From NCBI GenBank assembly GCA_934047225.1, contig OW203989.1:7787977-7851976 (forward strand): 64,000 nt of DNA. The letters run 5' to 3'. Below, one piece after another: positions 10,409-60,107 of this stretch; the first letter of the stretch is position 1; every line of letters starts with the position of its first letter. This stretch comes from Ypsolopha sequella (Eukaryota > Arthropoda > Insecta > Lepidoptera > Ypsolophidae). The translations under genes were made by a program, and so were the position numbers. The notes under the pieces were generated by a model that was not told the origin of the DNA, searched no databases, and saw only the letters and a list, made by a program, of their open reading frames with translations.

Positions 10409-10667
10409 GTGGTGATACTTAGATCCATGTTCTCATAAAGCCCTTTCGTTTAAAACTAAAAGACAGAAAAAAAATAACGGTACTTCATAAAAACCAAACG
10501 TGGATCTCTCAGCAATATCACCATTGATATTCTTATTCTAAAAACATTTCCCATGCTTCTATTCTATCATCACGGAGCCCACGGGAACTGGATTTTTACA
10601 TAGTAACAAATAATAATCTGTGCCGAAAATTACAACCGAACCGAACACAGACATAATACATTTCTGG

Positions 10668-11312
10668 TCCTCTAAAAAGGCCGTTTTGCATGAATCACAT
10701 TATGATTCTGTTCTAATGCCGTCTCTTTTGCACGCGTGGAAAAACTGACTCTATCCTACTTTCAAATCATTTTATGATTCACCGAAGTCGGCCTTTTTAG
10801 ATCCCCAGGTCCTCTAAAAAGGCCGCTTTGGATGAATCATATTATAATTCCGTTCTAATGCTGTCTCTTTTGCACGCGTGAAAAAACTCTGACTCCATCC
10901 TACTTTCAAATCATTTTATGATTCACCGAATTCGGCCTTTTTAGATCCCCAGGTCCTCTAGAAAGGCCGCTTTGGATGAATTATATTATAATTCCGTTCT
11001 AATGCCGTCTCTTTTGCACGCGTGAAAAAACTCTTACTCTATCCTACTTTCAAATAATTTTATGATTCACCGAAGTCGGCCTTTTTAGATCCCCAGTCCT
11101 CTAAAAAGGCCGCTTTGGATGAATCATATTATAATTCCGTTCTAATGCCGTCTTTTGTACGCGTGAAAAGCTCTAAACTCCATCCTACTTTCAAATCATA
11201 GCTTTGGATGAATCATATTATAATTCCGTTCTAATGCCGTCCCTTTTGCACGCGTGAAAAAACTCTTGACTCCATCCTACTTTCAAATCATTTTATGATT
11301 CACCGAAGGATT
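10668..11312. repeat. Tandem array of MITE family F (about 4.5 units of roughly 140 bp)
   Basis: Units begin near 10670, 10809, 10953 and 11098 with TCCTCTA(A/G)AAAGGCC and end with GGCCTTTTTAGATCCC. A truncated fifth unit spans 11203-11312. Every unit holds GATTC(T/C)GTTCTAATGC and TTTTG(C/T)ACGCGTG. Junctions read GATCCC-CA-GGTCC, so units abut head to tail with two spacer bases. The unit matches the single nested copy at 8873-9176. Confidence 0.85.
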
Positions 11313-13595: not shown

Positions 13596-13981
13596 GGGGG
13601 AACGAGTCGTATCCTCTACGAAACGCACAACTTAAGATGGTTGTTCTTATTTTTGAATTACAGATATTAAATAAATGTGATGTATAGCATTTCGCGAACA
13701 TATTTTAGTGTCAGTCAGGATCCTCTGGCAAAATTTTGTTATTATATTCATAACGTTGTAAATGTATGGGCACACAAACTTAAAACACGCCTTTAAGTAT
13801 GTGTGCCCATACATTTACAACGTAATGTATAAAATAACAAAATTTTGCCGGAAAAGCCCAACTGACACTAAACTATGTTCGCGAAATGCTATAAATCAAC
13901 GTTTATTTAATACTTGTAATTCAAAAATAAGAAGAACCATCTTAAGTTGTGCGTTTCGTAGAGGATACGACTCGTTCCCCC
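13596..13981. mobile_element. Foldback element flanked by TTAA
   Basis: Starts GGGGGAACGAGTCGTATCCT and ends with the complement AGGATACGACTCGTTCCCCC. The two arms are near-complementary for roughly 170-190 bases with a short loop near 13770-13800. TTAA lies immediately outside each end (13592-13595 and 13982-13985). TTAA duplication is typical of piggyBac-type (or Sola3-type) transposition, but the end sequence does not fix the superfamily. Confidence 0.8.
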
Positions 13982-19601: not shown

Positions 19602-20090
19602 TGTGGCCACCAAGTTGTTGAACATGACCGAATAGCTGAGAGGAGTTACGTAGGCATGATGCAGCCTCTCGGAGAGGTTCAAGGCCAGGCAGACCACCTG
19701 TCATATTAAATTTTCCCACAAAGTTACAGAACATGACTGAACAGCTGAGCGGATCTCTGTCAGCATGCTTCAAGGCCTGGCAGACCACATGTCATATTTT
19801 CCCACAAAGTTACAGAACATGACTGAACAGCTGAGCGGATCTCTGTCAGCATGCTTCAAGGCCAGGCAGACCACATGCCATATTAAATTTTCCCACAAAG
19901 TTACAGAACATGACTGAACAGCTGAGCGGATCTCTGTCAGCATGCTTCAAGGCCTGGCAGACCACATGTCATATTAAATTTTCCCACAAAGTTACAGAAC
20001 ATGGCTGAACAGCTGAGCGGATCTCTGTCAGCATGATACCTCTTGGGGAGGTTCAAGGATTGGCAGACCACAATGTCGACACTTCCCAGA
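19602..20090 (+). repeat. Tandem array of about 90-bp units inside the DIRS-like element
   Basis: CAGAACATGACTGAACAGCT recurs near 19724, 19812, 19905 and (with GGCTG) 19994, followed each time by GAGCGGATCTCTGTCAGCAT. A more diverged unit starts at 19602. One unit lacks a six-base ATTAAA. Confidence 0.8.
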
Positions 20091-36986: not shown

Positions 36987-36990
36987 ATTT

Positions 36991-37022
36991 CGTGCCCATA
37001 CTGCCAAAACCTGGTAAGTGCA
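36991..37022 (+). repeat. Left terminal inverted repeat of the transposon
   Basis: Starts CGTGCCCATACTGCCAAAAC. Pairs with 41307-41338 except at positions 8, 12 and 24. Confidence 0.9.
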
Positions 37023-37519
37023 CTTTTTGCCAAAAATTAGTTAGATATACCATAACAATGTGCTTTTCTCAATGCACCTACTGGTAAAACCCGTTTTTTG
37101 ATACGAGGCTCCGTTGCTAATTTAGACTTTATTTTAAAGTAACTTAAGTGTCATTTTGTAGTGACGTGAACTGCCAAAAGCGGTAATGTACATGATAAAT
37201 CAACTTTTAAATTTTCTTCTACAAGTAAATCATTCTATAGAATCTTTCACTTTTTTGCCATAGGACACATAATCGGTAAGTTCCCAGTTTCCAACAGCCA
37301 AAAACGTTTTTTGTGGTATAATCGGTTTTGCTTTTAATTTATTTACAATCTCAACTAAAATTCATTCAAGCAAAACCAGCAATGTGCGCAAACATGTTTC
37401 GTCCTGTAGCTTCTTCCTCCTTCCCCGCTCAGTTACGACTCAAGCGCTGAAGTTGTAGGCGTGTTTTTTCAAGCACTTGCACATAAAATATCGATTTTCG
37501 TGCATATCGGATTAAAATT

Positions 37520-40500
37520 ATGGATTCAAGGTGTAAAAGACTTGTAAGACTTGTAGTTGGAGACAGCAGCACTTTGAAGGAAGGTAAGTGTTTCAATATT
37601 TTGATTGTATTTTAAAATTTTTAGGTTATGTTTTTCTTGCAACAAAAACATGGCATGTATTTACAATTCAACTTTTTTTCTCGTCATTTTTCTTAAGGTT
37701 ATTTATGTTTGGCATTAAGATAATTACTTGATTAAATGTTGAATGTGAATGTGAAGCCACTCTTGCGAGAATGTCTGTCAATTTTGAAACAGACAATTTT
37801 TTTTTGTTTTTAATTGGAGCTTTGTTTACGTTTTAGATGAAAACAATAAGAGCATGGTGGAGTTGTCCAACTTCGACGAGTCCCCCAATTGCCCTGCAAA
37901 AATGCAAGAGATTGCAATTGGAGATACGAACACTTTGAAAGAGGGTAAGTATTTGTTTTTCATTTTTTAATTTGGGTATTTATGTCTATGTTTTTTCACA
38001 ACCTATAAAACATGGTACTTACATAAAAAAGAGCTATTTTTTATTATATACTATACTACAAATAGGAACTTATTTAGATTATTGTTTTATTGTATTAAGG
38101 CATGTAAATGAGTAAGTACGTATGAATATACAATATACTATGACTTCATGAGCAAAGTCGTACAGGGTCTACTATTTAGGTTGAAAGTGTTTTTACAAGC
38201 CAAAGAATAAGTTTTATGATGAAACGAATAATCATCTGAAATATTATTTTTTTATGATTAATTCGAGGTCCCATTATGTTTCAGATGATAATAATGACAG
38301 CAAAGTGGAGTCGTTCAACTTGATCAAGTCTTCTAAACACGATGCTGAACAAACACAACAGATTATCGAAGACGTGTCATTTAACGGAAATAATAATGAA
38401 GGTATACTCGAATCAATGCAAACCTCCCCTTTACCACAAATCAGCAGGCCATTAAGGCGAACCAACAGGCCATCAAGGCAAGTTAACAAGCCCTTAAGGC
38501 GGATATCTGAATCTGAAAGCGAATTGGAATTGTTTGGTGGTGATTTCTCGGATGGTGATGATACTTACATACCAGATGGGCTAGTGCGTGATACCACTCA
38601 GACCACTGATGATGAAGATGATTTAGTAACGTTAGAGGACTTATTAGGTCCAAATATTGATGAACCACAACCTAGCAGGAGTCGGCAGGATTTAGAGCTC
38701 AATCTTGACAATGCGTTTGACGTTGCTTCAATCATACTCACAGACGTTCTTGATTTAGTTTGGAAAAGAGTAAAACCATTAGCACGTTGGCGTACTGCAA
38801 AGCCAAATACATGGAAAAGAAATGTTGCTAAGAAAAGACGCGCAGAGGGTTTGGCGTATGAGACCAATAAAAAAATGAGAGCTGCAAAGGTACCTAAGGC
38901 CATTGATTGTTCAAACTGCAAGTTCAAATGTACGAACATATTTACCGATGAAGATCGAGAGAGATATTGTAGAGTTTACTGGAACCAAAACTTTGTGGGC
39001 AAGAAAAACTTTATTCTCTCGCATATTACAGTTGACCCACCAAAAAGAGTACAAGTAAATAGAAAACGCCAACCAAGACCGTACACTACAAAATGTTACT
39101 TTGATAAAGACTCAAAGAAACAAGTTTGTCAAAAATATTTTTGTTCTACATTGAGCATCTCTCCTTCGGTTATCACTGATGCTATTAAAAACCGGGACTC
39201 TCTGGGCTTGTACTCGAAAAATGAAGAACCTAGGGGGAGACATGAGCCATCCAACAAAATATCAGCAGAAAGGGTACAAGAAGTTGTAGATCACATAAAT
39301 TCTTTTCCAGCAATGGAAGGACATTACATAAGAAAACAATCAAAACGTAAATATTTAGACACCACTCTATCAATCACAAAACTGTATGAGCTCTATTGTG
39401 ACAAATACAAAGATAATCCTGTAACTGAAATTACCTACCGCAGAATTTTTGCGAAAGAGTTCAATTTAAGCTTTTTTGTCCCAAAAAAGGATCAGTGTCT
39501 CGTATGCAATAGGTACAATTCAGCACAAGGACAAGAGAAGATTGAACTAGATATTTCCTATCAGGAACATATGAAAAGGAAAGATAAAAGCGAAGCAGAA
39601 AAAGAAAATGATAAAAATAGAGCAGAGAAGGAGAAGAACTTTATATCAGCAACCTTCGATTTACAAGCTATTTTACAAATACCTTGTTCACAGATTGGAA
39701 TTCTATATTACGTACGCAAATTAACCATCTATAACTTATGCATATACGAAAGTGCTTTACCTAACAATGCCTATTGCTTTCCATGGACTGAGGTACACGG
39801 AAAAAAAGGAAGTGCCGAGATTGGTACAATTTTGCTCCATTATTTGACAAAATGCATTCCATGTAATGTGGCAGAAGTTTCTTTATTTTCTGACACTTGC
39901 AGTGGGCAAAATCGCAATCAATATGTTGCCGCTATTTTGCTTTGGATCGTTAACAACATTGATAATCTTCAAGTAATTGAACAAAAATTTCTTGAATCTG
40001 GACATTCTCACATGGAAGCCGATTCGATGCACAGTAGCATAGAAACTGCAAAGAAACATGTCGACGTCTTCTCTGTGAACGAATGGATAAATATTTTCAA
40101 AAAAGCAAGATCGAAGGAATTCTATAAAGTTGGGAAGAAAAAGGTAAAAAAGACCCCTTATCATGTAAAACAATTTAAATACAACGAATTTTTGGACCTA
40201 AAAAATTTGGCAGAAAATACAATAAAAAATAGAACCAAGGATAACGAAGGCAATAAAGTAAACTGGCTGAAGATAAAGAGACTAAAGTACGTAAAAGGGG
40301 AAACAAAAATATTTTTTAACTACGACATGTCTGAAGATTTTTTTCATTTTGAAACCAGGCCTCAGGTATTGCCTCAGTCAGCCCCCCGCACCAGAAAAAC
40401 ACACAGAAATCAAAAAGCCAATCCAATCCAAAGTCCTGAAGAGGAATTCACGTGCCCTCCACTGAAAACTCTTTATAATACACCCTTGCCCATCAGCGCG

Positions 40501-40647
40501 GCCAAAAAGAAGGACTTACTTAGTCTGTGCCAAAAAGGTGTTATCCCGGAGGAATATCACGGCTGGTTTCTATCCTTAAGTTGCGAAAATACTGTTGATC
40601 GCCTACCTGACGTTGCGGCTGCTGAAACCAGCAGTGAGGAAGAGTAA
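37520..40647 (+). CDS. Putative DDE-type transposase, 844 aa, three exons (37520-37583, 37837-37944, 38285-40647)
   Basis: I infer this protein moves the surrounding element. The exons join in phase 1 at GTAAGT donors and TTTTAG/TTTCAG acceptors. An in-frame stop at 37484 supports the ATG at 37520. The long frame alone would start at 38254, inside the intron. The N-terminus repeats a module (GD.(S/N)TLKE then D.NN.S.VE) once per exon. An acidic stretch follows, then Cys-rich segments (CSNCKFKC; KDQCLVC). Candidate acidic catalytic residues are D516 (FDLQ), D594 (SDTCSGQN) and E635 or D637 (GHSHMEADSMH). A Lys/Glu-rich charged stretch precedes D516, and the tail is acidic (ETSSEEE). The core resembles, from memory, the uncharacterised DUF7869 family of arthropods and cnidarians. 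Intact frame, no stops. Codon use is AT-rich like the surroundings. Confidence 0.85.
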
Positions 40648-40696
40648 TTGATAAAATAACTGTTGTGATTAATTTAATTGTTTGTGTAGTTGAGTC

Positions 40697-40702
40697 AATA
40701 AA
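40697..40702 (+). promoter_or_regulatory. Polyadenylation signal of the transposase gene
   Basis: AATAAA 50 bases after the stop codon, inside the element. Confidence 0.7.
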
Positions 40703-41306
40703 TGGTGTACTTATTACTTTTCATTTTATTTGCCCTAGGAATACACTAAGTACATTGACGTTAGGGAGAACCCAGTGCCACCTTAGTCAGCCCCTATAAT
40801 TCAGCAACGCCCTCAGCAACCCTTATTATTTCTAAAACAATGATGAAACGTAAACGTCTTCATTTTAGTTAAAAACTACTAATGTTAAGTGCACTTAAAA
40901 GTAAACCAAAAATTTTTCTACAGGCAAAACCAATTAAATTAACGGTGGTGTGCGGTTATTTTAATGTTATATAAAAACTATCATTAGCAAACTTCATGAA
41001 TCCAGATAACTTAAAAAAAATAACGTAATGAAAGCTAGAAATTGTAAACGCAATGCTATAAAGCGTTTCTAACAAAAAATAAAAAATAAGTCGTCCTACA
41101 GGTAAAACCCGGTAAGTACAGCCCCCATCTCACTAAAAATCAAATTTAGGAAGAAATTTGGAATATTTTTTTAATTTCGTACCTCTTGTCCAAAGGAGTG
41201 ATAAATAACACGCATATTAATATAAATGACATTAGATTATCACATCTACTTATAGAATAATTACTTAACAAACCTTTGAATCAAGTTTTCTCAAATTGTA
41301 AGTTCA

Positions 41307-41338
41307 TGCACTTAACAGGTTTTGGCGGTAAGGGCACG
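41307..41338 (-). repeat. Right terminal inverted repeat of the transposon
   Basis: On the minus strand it starts CGTGCCCTTACCGCCAAAAC, the partner of 36991-37022. Confidence 0.9.
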
Positions 41339-41342
41339 ATTT

Positions 41343-46061: not shown

Positions 46062-46348
46062 TATAAGGTCTTTCAATTCAAATGGAAAGTAATTTAGGAG
46101 GTGATTCAGTATCGTTAATACATCACATTCCACTGCAAAGTAATTTTTTTTGCGCGAACTTTTTTTTCACTTCTCAGTACGAAGTGAGAATAAAGTATAC
46201 GAAGTGGTGCGATCAGCTGACTCAGTTTGTATGGACAAGTGATAAAAAAGTTCGCGCAAAAAAAAATACTTTGCAGTGGAATGTGATGTATTAACGATAA
46301 TGAATCACCTCCTAAATTACTTTCCATTTAAATTGAAAGACCTTATAT
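46062..46348. mobile_element. MITE with about 100-bp inverted repeats
   Basis: TATAAGGTCTTTCAATTCAA is mirrored by TTAAATTGAAAGACCTTATA. Mirrored ATGGAAAGTAATTTAGGAGG and TACATCACATTCCACTGCAA follow. Flanks are TA-rich. It is inserted in the Helitron's coding end. A second copy begins at the left edge of the window. Confidence 0.85.
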
Positions 46349-48590: not shown

Positions 48591-49512
48591 AAAATAAAAA
48601 AATACTTTTTTTGTTATTTCCTCTTCGTTTTACTGGAAGAAATCTCTTCTTAGAGATAAGCACACCAATGTGCATATTGTTTTAAATTCAATATTATATG
48701 TATCCATATAATAATATACAGTAATATAAAACATATAAAGCTGAGGGCACTTTCATACTTTTTGCTCAATTCTACAATCTGCCCATCGTAGATGATTTCA
48801 TTGATTCAATCATTATATGATTGCGTGAATAAATTATTTTATTTTATCTCTGCATTGCGCTAAACAACAAATATTAAAGCGCTCTATTGAACAAAATGTT
48901 CAAAAGGCATGTCGCTCGGCAGTAATTTATTTAGTCAAAGCGAATTTCAGAATTGCGTCACGAATGCTTGTTATTTTTGGGTCCTATTGCTGAAGTTGAG
49001 TTTGTCTTTCGGTAAAATGTCGGCGGATAAATTTACGAAATGGATCGACCAACAGCCGCATTTCTAATAGAAAGGAGTAAAATTTTTCTTCTAAAAATAT
49101 TCAAATCTAAGGTATTTAGTATTATGCTGGGCACCCTAAAATCCATAGACATTTATTATTATTTATAAACCATAGACAAGTTATTATATCAAAAGCTACG
49201 TATGTCACAAAATGGTCTTTGGTTTCTAAAGCTATTGTACACTTCCTTAAAAATTTACGTGAATTTTTGTAGGAATCCCTCGTTCTTACTTTGCCTTTTT
49301 TTAAATTAAATATTTATAACAATTATGCGATTGCTATTGAAAAGGAAAATTAACTAAAATGTTTAAATTAAGTTCTTATCTCTATACTGCACATTTGCGC
49401 ATGGCTGTTCTTTCCATTTCCATTTCCACCCATTTCTATAGATAGTCTATGGATTCACCATTTCGCTTGTGTGCGCGGTATTGCGTGATTCCATTGTTGA
49501 TTATCGTAAATA
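48591..49512 (+). promoter_or_regulatory. Upstream region and probable promoter of mof
   Basis: No repeats were recognised here. The in-frame stop TAA at 49507 rules out an earlier start. The short frame MSADKFTKWIDQQPHF at 49018-49071 has no visible splice donor and is not treated as an exon. No TATA box was identified; the transcription start is not fixed. Confidence 0.4.
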
Positions 49513-50841
49513 ATGGCAAAAGGTGATAAAGATTTAGAAAAACCCATTGTGAACAACGAATTACCCAACCCCGAGTGTCGGAGCACAGATCCTGAAGATG
49601 GAGAGTCGCATCAAGAGCAGGCTTTGGACATTGGAGAACACTATTTGGTGCGGCGTTCAGATGAGTCATGGCACCCGGCGGAGATAATACAGACGCGGTA
49701 TAACAATGCGGAATCCTGCTACGAATATTATGTACACTACGTGGGCTACGACCGGAGGCTCGACGAATGGGTTTCCCGCCACCGGGTCATGTCCGACAGG
49801 TTTGACATGTGCGAGCAGTCTAACAACAGCATAAACTCCGATCACCTTCTCACAGATAAATCCGGCCGCAAAATAACGCGGAATCAGAAACGTAAACACG
49901 ATGAGATCAACCATGTTCAGAAGTCGTACGCGGAAATGGACCCCACTACAGCGGCATTGGAGAAGGAGCATGAAGCTATCACTAAAGTTAAGTATATTGA
50001 TAGAATACAAATTGGAAAATACGAAATCGATACATGGTATTTTAGTCCATACCCTGACGAATATGGAAAACAGTCTAAGCTTTGGATCTGTGAGTATTGT
50101 TTGAAATACATGAGAATGGAGAAAACATACCGGTATCATCTCAGTGAATGTACAGCAAGACAACCGCAAGGCAGTGAGATCTATAGGAAAGGTACTATTG
50201 CAATATTTGAAGCCGACGGTAAGGAGCACAAGATTTATTGTCAAAACTTGTGCTTATTGGCAAAGTTGTTCCTGGATCACAAAACTCTATACTTTGACAT
50301 TGAACAGTTTTTGTTTTACATCCTCTGTGAAGTTGACAGGCATGGTGCGCATCTCGTCGGCTACTTTTCAAAAGAGAAAGACTCGCCTGAAGGCAACAAC
50401 GTAGCCTGTATACTAACACTACCTCCATATCAGAGACAAGGCTATGGTAAGCTGCTCATAGCATTCAGTTATGAATTATCAAGGTTAGAACAAGTTGTTG
50501 GAAGCCCAGAAAAGCCTTTATCGGATCTTGGCAAGCTAAGTTACCGGTCGTACTGGTCTTTTGTTATTCTGGAGGTGCTGAGTGCTAGCAGAGGCACCCT
50601 CAGCATCAAGGATCTTAGTCAAATGACTGGCATATCACAGACAGACATTATTTCCACATTGCAGTCAATGAATATGGTTAAGTATTGGAAGGGACAGCAT
50701 GTTATTTGTGTTACACCAAAGATAGTAGCAGAGCAACTGGCTAGTTCACATTTCAAGAAGCCCAGGCTGTGTGTGGATCCATCAGCGCTGCGATGGACTC
50801 CCCCCAACAAGCAGAGTCATGGGGCTAAAGCAAAGAAGTAG
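49513..50841 (+). CDS. mof: MOF/KAT8 histone acetyltransferase (MYST family), 442 aa
   Basis: MOF acetylates histone H4 Lys16 using acetyl-CoA, as the catalytic subunit of the MSL and NSL chromatin complexes in the nucleus. Domains in order: chromobarrel at about 41-98 ([18 protein letters not shown] ... LDEWV); MYST C2HC zinc finger (C193, C196, H209, C213); acetyltransferase core at about 225-415. Within the core are the autoacetylated Lys in DHKTLYFD (K257), the catalytic Cys in [13 protein letters not shown] (C299), the acetyl-CoA loop QRQGYGK (307-313) and the general-base Glu in [11 protein letters not shown] (E333). Length fits the short animal form (human 458 aa) without the long N-terminus of Drosophila MOF. 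A single uninterrupted frame; an in-frame stop at 49507 fixes the start. All key residues are present, so it should be active. Confidence 0.97.
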
Positions 50842-57135: not shown

Positions 57136-58244
57136 CCCTTGTTCTTCTAACTAAATCATCAAATAGGACTTTTTTAACAGTAAGCGAGCCCCCGGACCAT
57201 AGATAAGTATAATGTACGCGGACCGCGCATGTCTGTACAATGAAGAAAAGTAATAAATAAAAAAAAGGGTGACTAAAAAAGAGTAATAGAACACAAATCA
57301 GCGATTTTTAGAATTCTTTCCTGTCTGCCTATCAGACTGTTTGTTCGCGCACGCTGAAGGGATTTTCATGTAGTTTTCACTCGTGGACAGAGCTTAATTT
57401 TGATTAGAATATAAGTTTAATTAAAAGCGGGGTACGAAAAAAAAGATTCCGTAATTTAAAATTTTTTGGAATTTACTGTTCTACTGTTAGAAGTTTGAAA
57501 TTATATAGCAAATCGTCCATATACTGCAAATACCGACTAACTGGCGTTTTTGTCATTTAGAGTAAATGCGTTTTGAAAATTTGCACACAAAAATTGTAAA
57601 GAATATGCTAAACTTATATATTTTATTTCATAAGTTATTTAATGCATTTTGTCACTGTTGAGAAAAAAAAATTTGCAAATTGGCAGGAAAAAACTACAAT
57701 TACTTGCAAAGGGGAGCACATTTTAGCTGTAAAATTAATATTTATGAATCTTAGGGTAATTAGTGAATTAGAGTGATAACAATCATAATAAGGCTAAATA
57801 ATGTTTTATTTAATCGTTTAATGTATCAGTTCTTTCAATTAGGATTTATTATAAGGCGTTAAGTAACAAAACTCAGATATTTCCAATCATTTAGGATTTT
57901 TTACCTGTAAACAATACATTAATTGATGTTTTATTTAATTTGAGACTCAGCGTTTTTTATTAACATTAATTTTATTGATTGTCCAATGGTTGATTCATGT
58001 AAATTTAACTTACTACTATGGTTTCCCAAAGTATAACACCATTAGGTTTACCATTGTAACTACTTTATTATACTTAGAGTTGAAATTGCAAAAAAAATAT
58101 TCATCTTCACTGGTTTCGGAAACGGCCACATCAGGTAATTAATGTTCATAGAATTCTTCTGTTATTACACCCTGGTCACACAATTTGACCAAATCCGTCT
58201 TTTTTGCGGCACTAATAGGTAGTGGATCTTTGTACAATTGGGTT
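57136..58244. other. No gene seen
   Basis: AT-rich sequence without supported exons or repeat partners. Confidence 0.35.
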
Positions 58245-59093
58245 AAATACCACTCCCACTAATATTATAAATGCGAAAGTTTGGATGGATGTATGGATGG
58301 ATGGATGTTTGTTCCTCCTTCACGCCGTAACTACTAAACCGGCTGAAACTTTGAACAAACGTAGTTCTAAACCTGGAATAGGACATCAGTTACTTTTTAT
58401 CCCATAAATCAGTTGCCATGGGATGGAAATGTGGTGTCAATTTCCTTTGGAAAAGTGATGTGATGTTACTCCTTCACGCCACACTTACTGAACTGATTGG
58501 GCTGAAACTTTGCAAAAATGTAGTTCTAAACCTGGAATAGGACATCAGTTACTTTTTATCCCATAAATCAGTTGCCATGGGATGGAAACGGGGTGTCAAT
58601 TTCTTATGGAAAAGTGATATAATGTTATTCCTTCACGCCTTACCTACTGAACCGATTGGGCTGAAACTTTGCACAAATGTAGTTCTCCACCTGGAATAGG
58701 ATATAGGCTACTTTTTGTTCCATAAATCTGTTCCCATGAGAACAAGTAATAGTGTCGTTCGGAGACGTGGCTTGGCCTTAAGCCTCGCTAAACATACTAT
58801 TCTAGGGGATTAAATCAGTTATCAAAGACCGCCAAAGACACATTAACAGAATATTAATTAAGAAAACAAAAAATTGTGTCGATCAAAAAAGCGGCTCGGC
58901 CTTCGGCCTCGCCAAGTACACTTTACATGGAGATCAAATTAGGGATGATGACAACCACAAACACACCAAACACTCCAAACCGGAGTCAGGTCAACTACGT
59001 ACTAAAAAATGAATGGTCTGCAAAGTATTTACAGATTCGATACGACATACACAAACTTAATAAACGCGGGCGAAGCCGCGGGCAAAACCTAGT
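58245..59093 (+). mobile_element. Helitron-like non-autonomous element with internal tandem repeat
   Basis: Starts near CACTAATATTATAAATGCGA and a GGATGGATG microsatellite, and ends CGGGCGAAGCCGCGGGC-AAAACCTAG before T. A unit of about 155-160 bases (CTTCACGCC ... GGCTGAAACTTTG ... ATAGGACATCAGTTAC) is present about 2.7 times (58319, 58472, 58631). The 89-codon frame at 58876-59145 runs off the element and is not a gene. Confidence 0.5.
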
Positions 59094-60107
59094 CAGGTTA
59101 TATAAATCCTTCCTCTATTGGTTAATCTACAGGCTTTGTTTTTGATTTTCAACTTTTGTTTTGTACCGTAACGCCATCCAGTTTCTGTTGCAGCTGTAAC
59201 AGTTTTGGTTTCCGAACTGACATCAAAATAAAAGAGTCTGTCAGACATGTCATAGTTGAAATAAAGTTTCGATTCTCCCTTTACGTATCACATTCTTTTT
59301 ATCTTTAGCCATTTAATTTTGTTACGTTCGTTATCCCTTGTTCTGTTTTTTATGACTGTTTCAGATAATGATTCAGGTTAAATAATGACACAAAATTGGT
59401 CCAATCTCAGCATTTCCCTTTTTTATATGTATTTCTGACCAAGTAAAACAATAGGCATAATTGGATAAAGCACTTTCATCACACATCTCAAATTTGTTAG
59501 TAGTTTTTGCCTGTATGAATTTTTAGCCTTTTAATAAGAAAAGCTTGTGGGTCGTCCGATCAACAGACAAAAAGCCTAAATATATTTAAGTTATTTTACC
59601 TGCATAAAATTACGAAACTATGAGCAGTTCAGTTGTTTGCAAATAACACTTAAATGCTTGTAGATGGTTTTAGAAACACATTAAATATTCATTTTTAATA
59701 AACCTTAGAATGCAAAAAAGATTTAAATAACTATAAATGCTTTTGATTGATAGTCAAATGTAAAATTACTGGACTATATAAACTTAGTTGCTGCTGTCAG
59801 TATAATGTATCGCAACTACCTGCATTTAGTTGTTTTTATCAGAAGCTAAATCTCAGACGAAGCGACGTAACACTTAACTTATTGTACCAGTAGATAGAGC
59901 ATGAAAAGCTGATTTTGCTGGTATTAATAAGTCGTTTTTGACAAAATTGACAGTTAGTCGGTATTTGCAGTATATGGACAAAATAATAATTCCTGGCGAT
60001 GACACGAACGATTGTTTGAAAGAAAAAAACGACAATACTTTGGTACGAATTATGTAGCGTATAAAATGTTAGTACATAAAAAATCAACAGGCATAAATAA
60101 ATATTTT
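59094..60107. other. No gene seen
   Basis: Short frames only; no repeat partner. Confidence 0.35.

Follow-up and report, generated by a model that had tools for sequence, protein, structure and literature searches.

The window analysed here is a 64,000-nucleotide stretch of the genome of the lepidopteran Ypsolopha sequella (assembly GCA_934047225.1, contig OW203989.1, positions 7,787,977 to 7,851,976 of the forward strand). It contains two related units: element 1, a complete-looking DNA transposon with a single spliced gene, and element 2, a decayed relative. The gene of element 1 encodes a protein matching DUF7869, a Pfam domain of unknown function. The features of element 1 are as follows (positions are those of the window; lengths in base pairs (bp) or amino acids (aa)):

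36987–36990, plus strand: left ATTT, likely target-site duplication (from the sequence)
36991–41338, plus strand: element 1, a seemingly complete DNA transposon of 4348 bp (inverted ends flanked by ATTT, intact spliced gene)
36991–37022, plus strand: left terminal inverted repeat, 32 bp (29/32 against the right repeat)
37170–37192, plus strand: inner end motif repeated subterminally, which may bind the transposase (74% over 23 bp)
37520–37583, plus strand: exon 1 of the putative transposase gene (GT-AG intron next, frame kept; start weakly supported by relatives)
37837–37944, plus strand: exon 2 of the same gene (GT-AG introns, frame kept)
38285–40647, plus strand: exon 3, the bulk of the 844-aa protein, stop included (open frame, relatives)
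39265–39474, plus strand: predicted winged-helix-like DNA-binding module (model residues 175–244)
39640–40053, plus strand: predicted RNase H core (model residues 300–437), with D516, D594 and E635 or D637 (AlphaFold model, Mos1 match, conservation)
39775–40254, plus strand: match to Pfam DUF7869 (PF25273), 34.1 bits against a cut-off of 26
40697–40702, plus strand: AATAAA polyadenylation signal (from the sequence)
41098–41120, plus strand: inner end motif repeated subterminally, which may bind the transposase (78% over 23 bp)
41307–41338, minus strand: right terminal inverted repeat, 32 bp (29/32 against the left repeat)
41339–41342, plus strand: right ATTT, likely target-site duplication (from the sequence)

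Element 1 has CGTGC ends, and a terminal inverted repeat pair of this quality is expected by chance about 1e-6 times in a 5.3-kb region under a simple base-composition model. As an identical 4-mer of any kind occurs at one given boundary with a chance of about 0.005, the ATTT flank of element 1, taken alone, constitutes moderate evidence. The inner end motif is found inside the element in two copies matching at least 16 of 23 positions, the better one at 17/23. In a control set of 60 Markov-model sequences the mean was 0.03 copies at this threshold; two of the sequences contained one copy each, one of them at 18/23. The subterminal repeats may serve as extra transposase-binding sites.

The gene is predicted to be spliced, with GT-AG introns that keep the frame and yield a product of 844 aa. 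An N-terminus resembling M-x2-R-x-(K/R)-(K/R)-LV was found in 4 of 235 relatives (P0001, P0015, P0020 and P0025), which gives the predicted start weak support; alignments over this region had E values of 0.083 (P0001) and 1.0 (P0025). The end of exon 1 with its splice donor (37551–37593) repeats the end of exon 2 with its donor (37912–37954) over 43 bp at 79%, and the start of exon 2 resembles that of exon 3 (20 bp at 80%). These repeats suggest that the small 5' exons probably arose through internal tandem duplication. The 32-bp ends, the ATTT directly outside them, the intact spliced gene and the length of its product, the polyadenylation signal, the total length and the likeness to DUF7869 had all been proposed in a first-pass annotation of this DNA, and each was recovered at the positions listed above.

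The same annotation had called for a structure prediction aimed at an RNase H fold. Such a core is indeed predicted for the element 1 protein by the AlphaFold model and its match to the Mos1 transposase, at about 10% identity over the aligned core. Two of the predicted catalytic acids, D516 and D594, are clear and are predicted to lie at canonical places, and the DNA-binding modules are predicted by the model to lie in front of the core. Three motifs (FDLQ, SDxCxGQNRN and GHxxMExDSMH) are common to nearly all rows of the core alignment.

When the element 1 protein was compared by tblastn with the rest of the window, gene remnants were located 16 kb from element 1, within a second unit:

57510–57513, minus strand: ATTT flanking element 2 at its 3' end (from the sequence)
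57514–59980, minus strand: element 2, a decayed relative with an interruption, 2467 bp (inverted ends flanked by ATTT, remnants of the gene)
57514–57555, plus strand: 3' inverted repeat of element 2, 42 bp (38/42 against the other end)
58100–58246, minus strand: remnant of the C-terminal coding part (tblastn E 1.2e-9)
59189–59477, minus strand: two coding remnants, 59477–59376 and 59371–59189 (tblastn E 1.5e-10 and 5.9e-17)
59939–59980, minus strand: 5' inverted repeat of element 2, 42 bp (38/42 against the other end)
59981–59984, minus strand: ATTT flanking element 2 at its 5' end (from the sequence)

The three coding pieces correspond to residues 490–523, 642–702 and 728–787 of the 788-aa frame, so that all three acids (460, 538 and 579/581 in that frame) lie outside the matched pieces. 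The reading frames of element 2 contain stops, and between the last two coding pieces the unit is interrupted by a repeat that includes a 159-bp tandem array (58341–58738). Two of the coding stretches can be aligned as DNA and are 77–78% identical to element 1, which places element 2 in a sister family and not in the same family. The inverted repeats of the two elements, compared without gaps from the ends, match at 18, 19, 20 and 21 of 32 positions in the four pairings; the chance is about 6e-6 for 21/32 and about 5e-4 for 18/32, the four pairings not being independent. At the boundary dictated by the alignment with the ends of element 1, element 2 is flanked by ATTT in gene orientation, and the chance of ATTT on both sides at a fixed boundary is about 1e-4 (the squared single-site value).

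The window was also scanned for end pairs matching at 16/20 with identical 4-mers outside, using eight AT-rich 4-mers. ATTT returned a single pair, element 1, while its complement AAAT returned two, element 2 and one A/T-rich pair. No pairs were obtained with TTTA and ATTA, and the remaining 4-mers gave 8 (TTAA), 12 (ATAT), 31 (AATT) and 18 (TATA). As element 2 shares the gene family, related ends and the 4-bp flank, the ends and the ATTT flank rest on two insertions. Element 2 is absent from the first-pass annotation and doubles the evidence for both.

Based on these observations, we suggest, with a probability of about 0.87, that element 1 is a DNA transposon whose one spliced DUF7869 gene encodes a predicted RNase H-type (DDE/DDD) transposase, which would likely insert it at ATTT-like sites, duplicating 4 bp. 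The first-pass interpretation thus stands in part, namely in that DUF7869 is a family of transposases, captured here together with the ends: the predicted RNase H core carries the acids, and element 2 supplies gene remnants, related ends and ATTT. To judge from the type of enzyme, movement would most likely be by cut-and-paste. The N-terminal modules would bind the inverted ends, and perhaps also the subterminal repeats, with the RNase H core making the cuts at the termini of the element. The ends would then be joined to an ATTT-like target with a 4-bp stagger, and the ATTT duplication would arise when the gaps are repaired. Element 1 could itself be autonomous.

Several results weigh against this interpretation. 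The element 1 protein matches no Pfam family besides DUF7869, and no transposase family, at E 10. Foldseek alone found no match in PDB at E 0.001 (the best, at 7.2e-3, was an Argonaute) or in the viral library, and by sequence the protein is related to no solved structure. The third acid has two candidates, E635 and D637, both conserved in 233 of 234 rows. Neither a second copy of element 1's own family nor an empty site was seen in the 64-kb window. In the scan, four of the six other AT-rich 4-mers returned 8–31 pairs, many of which are registers of other inverted repeats.

Inverted ends, ATTT, a transposase-type gene and a decayed relative together tie a large unnamed animal protein family to likely mobile DNA. 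A Pfam family without a known function thereby acquires a likely one. Its relatives number in the hundreds, and many are annotated as though they were ordinary genes of insects or molluscs; if the interpretation is true, such annotated DUF7869 genes should be treated as transposons. The element 1 protein passes the Pfam cut-off; what differs is that Pfam describes only a domain of unknown function, whereas here the domain is accompanied by transposon ends, a 4-bp flank and, by prediction, the active site of an RNase H. Element 1, intact and with both of its ends and a short AT-rich target, makes a candidate for testing excision in insect cells.

Among some 5.8 billion proteins searched, 381 relatives were found at E 0.001; 120 of them were listed, and DUF7869 appears in the precomputed Pfam column for 113 of these 120. 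The closest among the matches listed is LOC134653713 of Cydia amplana (60% identity), and the named matches come from moths, butterflies, beetles, a planthopper, an aphid, a caddisfly, a stick insect and a mussel. A second search with twelve distant members gave 860 matches (120 listed), overlapping the 381; among those listed were molluscs of the genera Mytilus, Saccostrea, Pinctada, Haliotis, Littorina and Batillaria. In this mollusc-rich search an OTU cysteine protease domain is given in the precomputed Pfam column for 33 of the 120 listed matches (e.g. P0138, P0140, P0145, P0146, P0206 and P0216), and hmmscan found it in two of five relatives from that search or their close kin (P0138 and P0140; not P0118, P0133 or P0143).

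In a tree of the window core and 30 named relatives (31 rows), the window core pairs with Cydia amplana (support 96/82). That pair sits in a 12-row group with weak support (80/75), comprising 11 lepidopteran sequences, the window included, and one beetle. From this placement a moth or butterfly would be the likely host. Near-identical cores are present in three lepidopteran families. Pattern searches gave 25 matches in IMG/VR and 40 in a set of one genome per GTDB species, with no relatives among either, and no relatives were confirmed in phage records; as these sets are without animal genomes, the absence covers only prokaryotes and viruses at that sensitivity. The gene model P0112 of Psylliodes chrysocephalus combines a Mutator-like transposase domain piece (PF20700) with a DUF7869-type protein; the match of the DUF7869-type part to the catalytic core is limited to 27 residues, and the model is probably an annotation chimera.

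A narrower form of the transposon interpretation, which we regard as rather probable, is that element 1 would simply belong to the known Sola superfamily, with Sola2 as the likeliest group and DUF7869 as the Pfam name for that transposase. Sola elements are reported to have a DDD transposase, 4-bp duplications, sizes of mostly 2–9 kb and ends of 11–1124 bp (PMC10741241), in agreement with the first-pass annotation, which had named 4-bp duplications as a Sola feature. ATTT outside both ends of two elements fits this, as do sizes and ends of 4348 bp with 32 bp and, for the decayed copy, 2467 bp with 42 bp. The Sola2 elements described from social amoebae make AWWT-type AT-rich 4-bp duplications, ATTT among them, and have an 888-aa transposase (PMC3627910), a length similar to the 844 aa found here. 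However, the matching features are not exclusive to Sola, and the likeness concerns the duplication, the sizes of element and ends and the length of the transposase. The ends of some of the amoeba elements are reported as shorter, at 12–21 bp (PMC3627910), than the 32 and 42 bp seen here. With regard to the DDD triad of Sola, the first two aspartates are clear and the third acid is E or D here. A survey of molluscs that included five gastropods is reported to have found Sola only in bivalves (PMC10294476), whereas relatives of DUF7869 also occur in gastropods; this is weak evidence against identity with Sola.

Less likely, in our opinion, is that DUF7869 and Sola are separate transposase superfamilies, the former with ends of its own and an ATTT target. 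In favour of separation, the protein matches no Pfam transposase family, and the three core motifs are shared as a set by nearly all rows. Neither DUF7869 nor PF25273 is named in the literature searched, in which the same proteins under Sola names would escape. On the other side, an AT-rich 4-bp duplication together with a probable third aspartate is what would be expected of Sola, and Sola may simply be without a Pfam entry under its own name. Should the family stand apart, we would tentatively define it by an RNase H core with FDLQ, SDxCxGQNRN and GHxxMExDSMH, by insertion directed to ATTT, by ends of the form CGTSC...ACTGC and by its presence in insects and molluscs; the mollusc proteins would often be fused to OTU, which may act on the host ubiquitin or DNA-repair system.

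It is very improbable that the gene belongs to the host, or is a domesticated transposase, and that the inverted ends and ATTT are there by chance: the gene is intact and spliced and its relatives are annotated as ordinary uncharacterized proteins, but against this stand the chance expectation for such ends given above, element 2, which combines related ends and an identical flanking 4-mer with what is left of the same gene, the beetle sequence that falls among the moths, with a starred pair, in the 31-row tree, and the near-identical cores in three lepidopteran families.

Mariner elements are much shorter than element 1, and Mos1, of the Tc1/mariner group, is only distantly similar in its aligned core. 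Mariner also duplicates TA (PMC5199201), in contrast to the ATTT seen here. Ginger1 shares with element 1 a 4-bp duplication, and an OTU protease domain is present in some of its transposases, as in some mollusc relatives of DUF7869. Its duplication is reported as CCGG or CCGT/ACGG and its 5' ends as TGTNR (PMC2836005), whereas here there are ATTT and CGTGC ends, with no integrase match in Pfam; on the duplication and the ends, Ginger1 was ruled out. PiggyBac and Kolobok were likewise rejected, as they duplicate TTAA and both elements are flanked by ATTT.

Elsewhere in the window, an open frame at 49510–50841 (plus strand), about 8 kb downstream of element 1, encodes a MYST-type histone acetyltransferase (MOZ_SAS, zf-MYST and Tudor-knot domains), probably mof. 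Two stretches, 13596–13981 and 46119–46290, have inverted ends matching at 20/20 with TTAA on both sides and resemble short, non-autonomous members of a family that targets TTAA. Tandem arrays lie at 10666–11199 (period 144 bp) and 19678–20035 (period 91 bp).
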